This document shows positions 43,800 to 47,297 of a DNA stretch of 64,000 bases, piece by piece (position 1 is the first letter of the stretch; each line of letters begins with the position of its first letter). The stretch is from Deltaproteobacteria bacterium (GTDB taxonomy: Bacteria > Bdellovibrionota > Bdellovibrionia > Bdellovibrionales > Bdellovibrionaceae): positions 62,001 to 126,000 of the forward strand of contig JAFLCC010000010.1 in NCBI GenBank assembly GCA_017302835.1. The letters run 5' to 3'. The translations under genes and the position numbers were made by a program. The notes below the pieces were generated by a model. The model did no database searches. It was not told where the DNA came from and saw only the letters and a list, made by a program, of their open reading frames with translations.

Positions 43800-45206
43800 T
43801 TAATTCACTTTTTTAAACTGCAATTCAAAGCAAGTACCAGATTCATTCTCTTTTGTCTCTAGAATATGAATGTCTGAATTTATGATTTCCGAATACTTTT
43901 TTACAATCGGAAGTCCAAGCCCTGTGCCTTTTTCACCACTGGTTCCAAGTCTATTGGTAGGTTTAGACAAGGAAAAAATATCTTTTTTTAACTCTTTTGG
44001 TATTCCAATCCCATAGTCTTGAAGTTTAATATTAATGGAGTCTTTTGTTTCAAATAAAAACAAATCAATGAAACCCCCTTCTGGTGAAAATTTGATGGCA
44101 TTTGAAAGAAGATTTGCCAGGACCTGGTTTTTAAGAATTTCAGGATCTGAAAAAGTAGATATTTCTGAGGAGTGACTATTAATTCTGAGGATCAGTTTTT
44201 TTTGATTCAATTTCTCTTCAAACAGAATGCTCAATTCTTCGCAAATAGTCACTAAGTTCACTTTTTTTAAACTTAAAGCGCTTTTACCAATTTTTAAAGC
44301 ATGTAATGAACGGATCGTTTTTATCACTTCATGAATGTTGTGCAGAGCTAGTTTAATTTTTCCAATAATTGGATCAAGTTCAGGTTTAGTGATTAACTTT
44401 GATATTTTATTATTACAAATTGAAATTATTTGAATTGGGTTGGATAGATCATGAACCAAAATATTAATGAGGGCTTCATTTTCGTTTGCCAGAATGTCTA
44501 GTTTCTTGTTTCGTTCTTCAAGTGACAGGTTCGAAAACTTTAATTGCTCCGTTAAATCGTTTAGTTCAGAAGTTCTTTTTTTAACTTCTAGCTGCAAATT
44601 TGAGGTGTATCTTTCCGATAACTTTTTGGTAATAAATAAGGGAATATAAATTGAATAACTAAAGAAAAAAACCAAACTCGCTGAAAACCCAAAAATGGCC
44701 AAATCTTCTTGGGGGCGTAAAATGGGATAATCCGCCATATGTAAGGTATTCATAAAAATAAGAAAAATAAATCCCTTTTGTAGATAATCAGGCTTTGCTT
44801 TTATGGCATCTATAATTGAAATAAGTAAAATTAAAACAACAGATACTACATAGGGCGTCACCGAAATGGTATAAGAAGAGCCCATTACAAACATTACAAT
44901 AGAAGTAAAAAAACCAACAAGCCCAATAAATAAAAACAAAATTGAAGGCACTTTGTTTTGAAACGAATCATAGAGAATTGAAGTCAAAAAATAAGCGCTG
45001 AGGCCATTTATTGAAAACCCCAGAAAACCATATAATGACAGGCTATTGAACACTCCCTGGAAAACATAGGCAAATAAACCGGTTAACCAAAAAAATAATA
45101 ATTTTTTTAATAAATCTTCTTTATTTCTATACCAAAGTATTCCAGTAAATACAGAATTAAAAATCAAAACAATTCCAAAAATATAAACAAGTGTTTGTAA
45201 AACCAT
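43800..45206 (-). CDS. Membrane sensor histidine kinase
   Basis: 468-aa kinase. The first 195 residues hold about seven membrane segments with little periplasmic part, so the signal is probably sensed in or near the membrane. A coiled region (200-245) links to HisKA, with His252 in NILVHDLSNPIQI, and a HATPase domain carries NLLSNAIKFSPEGG, DYGIGIPKE and GTGLGLPIVKKY. The HDLSNP H-box is a recognised variant. On the same strand, further upstream in the block, is a receiver-only regulator, a possible partner. Gap to the HDO gene is 101 bp. Confidence 0.88.
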   Translation of the reverse strand: MVLQTLVYIFGIVLIFNSVFTGILWYRNKEDLLKKLLFFWLTGLFAYVFQGVFNSLSLYGFLGFSINGLSAYFLTSILYDSFQNKVPSILFLFIGLVGFFTSIVMFVMGSSYTISVTPYVVSVVLILLISIIDAIKAKPDYLQKGFIFLIFMNTLHMADYPILRPQEDLAIFGFSASLVFFFSYSIYIPLFITKKLSERYTSNLQLEVKKRTSELNDLTEQLKFSNLSLEERNKKLDILANENEALINILVHDLSNPIQIISICNNKISKLITKPELDPIIGKIKLALHNIHEVIKTIRSLHALKIGKSALSLKKVNLVTICEELSILFEEKLNQKKLILRINSHSSEISTFSDPEILKNQVLANLLSNAIKFSPEGGFIDLFLFETKDSINIKLQDYGIGIPKELKKDIFSLSKPTNRLGTSGEKGTGLGLPIVKKYSEIINSDIHILETKENESGTCFELQFKKVN

Positions 45207-45307
45207 GCTAATTCTATTTCTCGGGAAGATATGAAAGTTCTTAAGACTTTTCTTTGGATTTTTTCATATTTTCCCAAAATGAAACAAAACTAAATATTAA
45301 ACAGCAC

Positions 45308-45982
45308 CTATAGTTGCAATTCTGGAACGCGGGCTAAGGCCTGACGATTCTGATTTTCATAAATATCAGAGAATATACCACGATAGATGACAGAACATTG
45401 TTTTATCGATTTCTCAACAATCGGTAGAAGATTTTCTGGGCATGATTTTAAGTAGGGCAAAGCGTTTGCGAAATGATCTTTGTCAACCTCGCAATGCACT
45501 TTCAAAAAACTAGTTGGAGTCAAACCGTGTTGATTTTTAACTCTTTCATAAATTTCACCCGCTTTTTGAGCAGCAAAACCTTCTAATGTGAGCGAGTATC
45601 CCAAAATTGAAATTGGGTGAACACGCTCAATCATGTAATTAAGCGTTTGGTAAAAAAATGAGCTGTGAGGATATTCTTGAAATTGAGAAAGGGAATAACC
45701 CATGGACTTTAAGTCATGAAGGCATAGTATTTCATGTTTTTTTTCTTCTCTGGCCTCTTCAACAAAGCGCCAGTGGTATTCATCTTCTATAACTGGTTTT
45801 GTATGAGCCGAGGCTAAAGCTAATTGTCTTGTTGTCCAAGAAACGTAAAAAAAGCTTTGTGCCAACCAATCAGCATATAAACCTTTATTTTCCCATTCAA
45901 ACGCCATTGCCACTTTATGAATGGAGTCAATCTCTGCAAGCATGGTGGAATAAACTGATTCACAGGTCGATGTCTTTATCAT
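45308..45982 (-). CDS. Haem-oxygenase-like diiron enzyme (HDO type)
   Basis: 224-aa all-helical protein. The ligand pattern of haem-oxygenase-like diiron oxidases is complete: Glu76 and His83 (EEAREEKKH), Glu134 (LTLEG), then His163, Asp167 and His170 (KVHCEVDKDHF). The E-x6-H and H-x3-D-x2-H spacings match the CADD/UndA/SznF-type family, which uses O2 for varied oxidations in natural product and fatty acid chemistry. A TenA/THI-4 role is less likely because of this full metal set. It overlaps the GNAT gene upstream by 23 bp, so they are translationally linked and may act in sequence. Confidence 0.78.
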   Translation of the reverse strand: MIKTSTCESVYSTMLAEIDSIHKVAMAFEWENKGLYADWLAQSFFYVSWTTRQLALASAHTKPVIEDEYHWRFVEEAREEKKHEILCLHDLKSMGYSLSQFQEYPHSSFFYQTLNYMIERVHPISILGYSLTLEGFAAQKAGEIYERVKNQHGLTPTSFLKVHCEVDKDHFANALPYLKSCPENLLPIVEKSIKQCSVIYRGIFSDIYENQNRQALARVPELQL

Positions 45983-46718
45983 ATATCTCTCCTTTTTTAA
46001 TACTTCTATTTAGACTATTTTTATTTGGAATTCTTTTGTTTAAATTAATATCTCCTTGGATGGCGGCTTTGGACCAAAGATCCTCCACCATTGTTTTTAA
46101 GGGGTGATCTGTATTTGAATAGCAGTTTTTTTCAAATTCGAAATAAGTGGACGGCTCATTATGTACTAATTGTCCAGTTAAAATGGGTCTAGCCCCCCAT
46201 CGGTGCGCGAGCGAGTCCGTCTTTTTTTGATTTCTTGTGTAACAAACACAACGTTGGAAAGGACTATTTTCCATGCGCTTGACCGCCAAACCTACAAGTA
46301 AATCAGCGGCTCCAAATCCACCACGCCAAAGTTTAGATACAGCCAGTTGATTTATAATAAAGGAAAATCCAAAATTATGAAAAATTTTTCTTTCTACTTC
46401 ATTTAACCAAGAAAAATAAGAATGACTCAAGTGAATTGGATTATCGAGATCAAACAAGTCCAACCCAAGTACGCCCACAACATCGGACTCATACGAAAGA
46501 GCTATGATTTCAAACTGCCTTAGGAATTCATCACTGTGCAATGAGTCCGCTTTTCCCACTGATCGCATTACGGGTTCCCATTGTTGTTTCCAGAAGCTAA
46601 ATATTTTGGAATACACTTCAGAATCGACCAATTCACCAAACTTACCAGGCAGTATATGGCAACTAAGACTTTCTTTAAAAATCACTCTACGTCCAACAGA
46701 AATTTCATTTTTGAGCAT
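45960..46718 (-). CDS. GNAT-type N-acyltransferase (autoinducer-synthase/FeeM-like)
   Basis: 252-aa protein. An FDLDNPIHLSHSYF element in the middle and NQLAVSKLWRGGFGAADLLV (acyl-CoA/ACP-binding motif A type) followed by YTRNQKKTDSLAHRWGA give the layout of GNAT acyltransferases, nearest in feel to N-acyl amino acid synthase (FeeM) and autoinducer synthase relatives. The substrate is unknown. Gene order regulator-GNAT-HDO-kinase, all minus strand, suggests a small molecule is made and sensed. The ribosome site is weak. Confidence 0.65.
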   Translation of the reverse strand: MLKNEISVGRRVIFKESLSCHILPGKFGELVDSEVYSKIFSFWKQQWEPVMRSVGKADSLHSDEFLRQFEIIALSYESDVVGVLGLDLFDLDNPIHLSHSYFSWLNEVERKIFHNFGFSFIINQLAVSKLWRGGFGAADLLVGLAVKRMENSPFQRCVCYTRNQKKTDSLAHRWGARPILTGQLVHNEPSTYFEFEKNCYSNTDHPLKTMVEDLWSKAAIQGDINLNKRIPNKNSLNRSIKKGEIYDKDIDL

Positions 46719-46799
46719 TTTTGGATTTTAAAATTAGACTATTTAAGTGTCAAACCACAAGTTCTTAAATCTCAGTAACTTTCTGTCAAATTATTTTGT

Positions 46800-47297
46800 T
46801 CAACCAATTTTACTTTTGAGATATTTTGCCACCTGTAAAATACCAACTGTTTTTTTCTGGTTTTCAATAATAAACTTATCAGAATTAGGAGTTTCTTTTG
46901 ATTTTAGGTTTTCCAGCTCATTTTTTTCACTTACATATTCCATGGTTCTTGAAACTAAGTCTGTAAACTTGTCCAGATCAAAGGGCTTTTCAATATAATC
47001 CACAGCTCCCAATCTCAATGCACTCATTAGATTTTCTTTGTTACCATTTCCAGTGATAAAGATAATCGGAGTGTGAACACCCTTCATCCGGATCTTTGTT
47101 AAAAACTCATCACCCTTCAGTTTTGGCATCATGATATCGGAAATGATGAGATCAAAATTCTGTTTAATCACTAAATTATAAGCTTCCTCACCATCTTTAG
47201 CCTTACTTATATTTTCAAAAAGATCACTTAAGACTTCCGAAACCGTGTCCGCTATGTCCACTTCGTCATCGATAATTAATACAGATTTGTACTTCAT
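46800..47297 (-). CDS. Receiver-domain response regulator
   Basis: 165-aa protein from MKYKSVLIIDDE (GGGGGTAG ribosome site; an earlier ATG lies 18 bp upstream). Acidic pair Asp10-Asp11, phosphoacceptor Asp54 (IISDIMMP), Thr82 region (FITGNGN) and Lys in IEKPF are present. A C-terminal 45-residue tail is charged, then a short hydrophobic end; no output domain. It would signal by protein contact. First gene of the regulator-GNAT-HDO-kinase block. Confidence 0.85.
   Translation of the reverse strand: MKYKSVLIIDDEVDIADTVSEVLSDLFENISKAKDGEEAYNLVIKQNFDLIISDIMMPKLKGDEFLTKIRMKGVHTPIIFITGNGNKENLMSALRLGAVDYIEKPFDLDKFTDLVSRTMEYVSEKNELENLKSKETPNSDKFIIENQKKTVGILQVAKYLKSKIG

Follow-up and report, generated by a model that had tools for sequence, protein, structure and literature searches.

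The window analyzed here is a stretch of 64,000 nucleotides from a member of the Bdellovibrionaceae (assembly GCA_017302835.1, contig JAFLCC010000010.1, positions 62,001 to 126,000 of the forward strand), whose source genome (G000) comprises 3.6 Mb in 35 contigs. It carries a locus of four genes, read by the original prediction as a possible module for the synthesis and sensing of a small molecule. In order, these genes encode a response regulator receiver, an N-acyltransferase of the GNAT fold, a haem-oxygenase-like diiron oxidase/oxygenase (HDO), and a multi-span sensor histidine kinase, and all four lie on the minus strand, as had been claimed. The stand-alone receiver (46800..47297, 165 amino acids) matches PF00072 (E 9e-28), and no output domain was found in it. 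It is followed, after 81 bp, by the gene for the GNAT (45960..46718, 252 amino acids), a member of an unnamed family for which a role as acyl-transfer synthase is predicted from an AlphaFold2 model and its structural matches. This gene overlaps the HDO gene (45308..45982, 224 amino acids) by exactly the 23 bp reported earlier, and 101 bp separate the latter from the kinase gene (43800..45206, 468 amino acids). The kinase matches HATPase_c (E 9e-18) and retains the catalytic motifs, namely the phospho-acceptor motif HDLSNP (His252) and the ATPase boxes DYGIG (D-x-G-x-G) and GTGLGLPIV (G-x-G-L-G-L). Its N-terminal input domain (44607..45206, minus strand) is membrane-embedded with several hydrophobic spans, is conserved in kinases adjoining GNAT-HDO pairs, and matched no family in Pfam. 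Directly upstream of the GNAT start lies a promoter-like site (TTGACA-17-TAAAAT, 46725..46753, minus strand), identified by consensus match only (11/12). Transcription from this site would begin at about the annotated ATG of the GNAT gene; a GTG at 46683 agrees more closely with the N-terminus of the family and is a candidate for the actual start codon. No terminator-like sites above chance were found at the locus.

Membership of the diiron enzyme in the HDO superfamily is seen from sequence, since it matches PF14518 (Haem_oxygenas_2) with E 2.6e-11, over the gathering cut-off. The family profile additionally matches PDB 3dde (E 4e-20) and MboA (E 2.5e-8), the nearest solved relatives of the window HDO by sequence. 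Six residues encoded within 45473..45745 (minus strand), Glu80, His83, Glu134, His163, Asp167, and His170, are invariant in 37 aligned HDO members and form the arrangement E-x2-H / E / H-x3-D-x2-H, a complete set of three histidines and three carboxylates. The same set is common to both solved relatives and is that of most HDOs (PMC13108848). In the profile alignment, Glu80 and His83 fall on Glu86 and His89, which belong to the metal ligands of MboA (PMC13185094). Thus, of the metal set proposed earlier, His83, Glu134, His163, Asp167, and His170 stand, and the remaining ligand should be Glu80. Glu76, named in its place, is ruled out, because position 76 varies and Glu80 is the residue that aligns on Glu86 of MboA. 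An incomplete metal site would have spoken against the earlier prediction, and the predicted ligand set is complete across the 37-member alignment. MboA itself differs from the HDO of the window in that it acts on a peptide substrate and depends on MboB, a reductase (PMC13185094); a gene for such a partner does not recur beside the HDO here.

For the GNAT, no match was found among Pfam and NCBIfam profiles. The family alignment also had no consistent match in Pfam, with only one of 37 members reaching Acetyltransf_1 (E 0.07), and a search of PDB sequences with the family gave nothing convincing. The AlphaFold2 model of the window protein, built with 30 relatives (pLDDT 87.6, pTM 0.85), has a GNAT fold. 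In VIA-align 2, Z was at least 8 for 898 of the 999 aligned PDB chains, and the rows listed are GNATs. The predicted structure supports the assignment as GNAT, which could not be made from sequence profiles. The top ranks are taken by the coenzyme A (CoA)-dependent acyl-homoserine lactone (AHL) synthases RpaI and BjaI (Z 15.0-15.3, 194-201 residues aligned), including RpaI with Z 15.3, root mean square deviation 3.2, and 194 aligned residues, and BjaI with Z 15.2. Among the top rows, the C-terminal segment to residue 228-233 is covered only by AHL synthases. Foldseek matches of the model include arylalkylamine and polyamine N-acetyltransferases, EsaI, RpaI, LasI, BjaI, and FeeM (E 3.9e-6, TMt 0.68).

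The distribution of the genes was analyzed by profile searches of the window genome and of the genomes of 60 relatives (61 Bdellovibrionota genomes in total), many of them draft metagenome-assembled genomes (MAGs); genes were called by simple selection of open reading frames (ORFs). The HDO was found in 46 and the GNAT in 45 of the 60 relatives. A GNAT gene is located within 2 kb of the HDO gene at 43 of the 48 strong HDO loci, compared with about 0.1% per genome expected by chance, given one copy of each gene in about 3 Mb. Two of the five HDO loci lacking a nearby GNAT lie near contig ends (G021 and G013), two have a methyltransferase as the HDO neighbor instead (G004 and G005), and in G001 (L063:125-613) the neighbor is another protein, with weak likeness to GNATs (Acetyltransf_5 E 0.009, FeeM E 0.05), a possible non-orthologous replacement of the GNAT synthase. 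An S-adenosylmethionine-dependent methyltransferase was seen in the place of the GNAT, between the HDO and the kinase, in two genomes, at L096 (6747-7571) and L097 (1002-1826); the sister genome L091 keeps the GNAT. The pair is found as GNAT-HDO, HDO-GNAT, convergent, and divergent arrangements, and thus the linkage survives rearrangement. Beyond these genomes, the pair turned up in a GTDB scan in Bdellovibrio bacteriovorus kdesi (L124), Bdellovibrio qaytius (L125), Bacteriovoracaceae, Halobacteriovoraceae, and two genomes of Methylocystis, so that conserved synteny of the GNAT and HDO genes holds across two Bdellovibrionota classes and beyond. In two loci of Bacteriovoracaceae, L149 (4749-5546) and L135 (4704-5492), a gene for phenylalanine 4-monooxygenase precedes the run of kinase, GNAT, and HDO genes (TIGR01267, E 1.2e-88 in L149). 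A contig labelled as a Streptomyces griseus MAG (L158) is probably mis-binned, as it contains an XRE gene together with a fragment of an HDO and a Bdellovibrionota-type PAS sensor.

Two alternative types of sensor were found beside the pair. The first is the kinase type of the window, whose input domain is also encoded beside GNAT/HDO genes in L062, L091, L094, L096, and L097, as well as in the Bdellovibrionota loci L135, L137, L139, L145, L148-L150, L152, L153, L155, and L156, mostly from Bacteriovoracia. Among the 61 genomes, this domain is present in 10 and lies beside the HDO in 6 of those; G001 does encode a close relative of the kinase, but not next to its HDO, and the three remaining matches to the kinase domain are weaker. 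The multi-span kinase thus recurs beside the GNAT-HDO pair in separate lineages. The second type was found by neighbor clustering as a protein of 220-270 amino acids without a Pfam family, usually accompanied by a small XRE-type helix-turn-helix (HTH) protein (PF01381). The AlphaFold2 model of its representative from L125 (pLDDT 84) has an N-terminal helical part and a C-terminal domain with the strand and helix order of PAS. The VIA-align matches listed for this model are PAS/LOV domains (Z up to 7.7), and one of 34 family members reaches PAS_9 in Pfam (E 0.025). In most relatives, this PAS protein and the XRE regulator are used instead of the kinase; the locus of Bdellovibrio bacteriovorus kdesi (L124) is of the PAS type. 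The PAS family was not detected in the genome of the window, which has the kinase instead.

The two sensors exclude each other. In the genome-wide count of 48 HDO loci, 40 have the PAS type, 6 the kinase type, and none both, so that exactly one sensor gene adjoins the synthase genes at 46 of 48 loci; a conserved position of synthase genes beside a sensor gene is a feature of quorum-sensing systems. Among about 89 de-duplicated loci, the kinase was found at 17, the PAS protein at 54, and both at none (Fisher test, 6e-9, with kinship ignored); this second count was made from simple ORF calls, and the genome-wide search recovered PAS genes missed at several of these loci. One genome, G014, has two cassettes, one for each sensor type (L062 and L116). 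A sensor is encoded in 49 of 50 genomes with a synthase and in 2 of 11 genomes without (counts 49/1/2/9). On the HDO tree, a quick tree with many open branches, at least 4 changes between kinase and PAS labels are required and the kinase label falls on separate branches, with well-supported branches forcing at least 2 gains or losses of it. The exclusion is therefore not a single event inherited by all. Of the 73 copies of the PAS sensor, 25 are located away from synthases. Two related complete genomes (G010 and G035) have six PAS-family copies each, most of them away from any synthase and several with in-frame stops in the matched frame.

Both synthases are often Ala-Ala-terminated. This ending was found in 38 of 82 HDOs and 30 of 79 GNATs, most often preceded by Lys or Arg, compared with 18 of 1110 other genes of the same loci and one of 57 PAS proteins. 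In the loci L062-L158 the share is thus about 40% for the GNAT and HDO vs. 1.6% for their neighbors; the counts are inflated by relatedness, and the contrast with the PAS partner is drawn within the same loci. Several adjacent kinases also end in Ala-Ala, as do the plasmid-borne LuxI proteins L170, L172, and L174 (three of seven fetched). The tmRNA tag of the window genome is ANENVAMAA. The ssrA-type degrons recognized by ClpXP have a terminal Ala-Ala as their key element (PMC7652416), and exactly such a tail controls the antimycin regulator SigAntA (PMC7142297). By analogy, the GNAT and HDO of many members are probably short-lived ClpXP substrates.

The reading that we slightly favor is that the locus is a module for synthesis and sensing, in which the GNAT and the HDO make an acylated, oxidized molecule and the adjacent sensor reads this product. 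The GNAT would move an acyl group from CoA or a carrier donor onto an amine (e.g., an amino acid or a polyamine). The HDO would then oxidize the product of the GNAT, for example by desaturation, oxidative decarboxylation, or N-oxygenation. The oxidized product may enter or cross the membrane and be read there by the multi-span kinase of this organism, perhaps acting via the receiver protein, or by the PAS-domain protein with its XRE-type DNA-binding partner in most relatives. From the linkage, the exclusivity, and the orphan sensor copies we infer that the sensors respond to the product. In many relatives, the C-terminal Ala-Ala would make both synthases short-lived substrates of ClpXP, and the outcome may be a quorum-sensing-like loop of Bdellovibrionota. 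The GNAT-HDO-sensor layout thus suggests an undescribed chemical signaling system. More tentative is the proposal of a new class of autoinducer, which may well prove wrong, namely that a GNAT with a LuxI-like fold (non-LuxI by sequence) and an HDO make the signal, that these synthases are often degradable by ClpXP, and that on several occasions the pair was rewired from one sensor type, a membrane histidine kinase or a PAS/XRE receptor, to the other.

Several observations weigh against this reading. Just 8 of 19 kinase-type loci have a gene with a receiver domain near the pair, and for this reason we regard the receiver as an optional part. The linkage of four genes, set beforehand as a test, thus holds for the GNAT, HDO, and kinase, and fails for the receiver, which is kept sporadically and is no conserved fourth gene. 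At eight GNAT loci with a PAS sensor, an HDO is missing from the surrounding 2 kb, and the GNAT and HDO of the window itself have no Ala-Ala end. In the structural comparison with FeeM, LuxI, and protein acetyltransferases that had been proposed for the GNAT, AHL synthases do rank first, but the margin is narrow, as arylalkylamine N-acetyltransferases come next with Z up to 14.7 and up to 172 aligned residues, within 1 Z and thus tied under the rule of VIA-align itself. The profile-profile comparison of the GNAT with LuxI (PF00765; reference set of seven plasmid-borne LuxI proteins) was not significant, with a probability of 0.4%, about that of decoys. Because of this, and with no match in Pfam, membership in LuxI by sequence was dropped and the likeness in fold kept; the earlier placement of the GNAT in a known class of enzymes making N-acyl signals is likewise not supported by sequence. 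As modeled, the protein is of a LuxI-like fold and lies outside LuxI sequence-wise. A Pfam search for LuxI in the window's own genome gave no match, but control genomes gave none either, so absence is not shown by it, and the Methylocystis GNAT had no match when searched against plasmids. Finally, cluster regulators of an ordinary kind, with oxygen, redox, or prey as their cue, would also give one sensor per cluster.

This last point leads to an unlikely but serious alternative, in which the GNAT and HDO make a specialized metabolite (an antimicrobial, a metallophore, or a prey-directed molecule) and the kinase or PAS/XRE proteins are cluster-situated regulators of an environmental cue and not of the product. 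The same gene layout fits it, and mutual exclusion does so as well, because cluster-situated regulators are usually present as one per cluster. PAS domains often sense oxygen or redox. Additionally, HDOs are known mostly from natural-product pathways (PMC13108848), including that of mangotoxin (PMC13185094). However, the clusters are tiny, with two enzymes, and neighbor clustering revealed no family of nonribosomal peptide synthetases (NRPS), polyketide synthases, exporters, or resistance genes recurring beside the pair. The 25 of 73 PAS-sensor copies away from synthases, which resemble receptor solos, also argue against it.

Modification of a membrane lipid or a lipid-like amine (e.g., an N-acyl amino lipid) by the pair, with sensors that monitor the envelope, is improbable. 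Nine loci have fatty-acid desaturase-type genes nearby (PF00487, E 8e-36 for the single one tested), which hint faintly at a fatty-acyl product, and the hydrophobic, membrane-embedded input domain of the kinase agrees with such a role. Most loci, however, have no desaturase, most relatives use a PAS-domain sensor and not a membrane kinase, and Ala-Ala tails would be more in keeping with regulatory enzymes of short lifetime than with lipid synthesis as a housekeeping function. That the window kinase is a chance neighbor and the pair alone is the functional unit is very improbable, since, although kinase-type loci are a minority, the receiver is inconsistent, and G001 encodes its related kinase apart from the HDO, the same input domain adjoins the pair in both Bdellovibrionia and Bacteriovoracia, with the gene order varying, lies beside the HDO in 6 of the only 10 genomes that have it, and is never accompanied there by a PAS sensor.

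The proposed synthesis-and-sensing module can be compared with several known systems. As in LuxI/LuxR (RpaI, BjaI), the gene for a GNAT-fold synthase lies beside that for a sensor; the synthases are similar in size and match in their C-terminal part, and the PAS-domain sensor with its HTH protein resembles LuxR split in two. In contrast to LuxI/LuxR, there is no detectable sequence relation, a diiron tailoring enzyme is added, and the sensor belongs to one of two other types, a PAS/XRE pair or a histidine kinase. The GNAT fold is common to the window protein, FeeM, and other N-acyl amino acid synthases, as seen in the Foldseek match with FeeM, but FeeM has no sequence match to the GNAT family; to our knowledge, FeeM systems have neither an HDO nor a dedicated sensor. 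Multi-span histidine kinases that sense autoinducers include the CqsS/LqsS, RpfC, and AgrC types. By general description, these are like the window kinase in their membrane-embedded input domain, their kinase core, and the position of their gene beside a synthase, although the input domain of the window kinase matches no Pfam family. A precedent for the proposed role of the HDO in signal synthesis is given by the ham/mgo/pvf systems (valdiazen). In the ham cluster the haem-oxygenase-like HamA (hamA) is required for the diffusible autoinducing signal valdiazen (PMC5878181), and the pvf cluster is related (PMC10194917). Valdiazen differs in being built on an NRPS-like protein and an AurF-type N-oxygenase, neither of which is seen here, where a GNAT is found instead.

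Bdellovibrio-like predators must time their attack, growth, and synchronous division. In the part of the literature on them that was covered, neither a self-made diffusible signal nor a system of this kind was found described. The synthase-sensor cassette is conserved in 49 of the 61 genomes examined, and with a two-gene synthase and a sensor named, the question is directly testable. An exchange of sensors beside the same pair of synthases would offer a natural experiment on the rewiring of signaling circuits. If the proposed reading is true, the system would add a sequence-novel family of acyltransferases and a signaling role for a diiron HDO, and it would be the first self-made signaling system on record for the predatory Bdellovibrionota, Bdellovibrio bacteriovorus among them.

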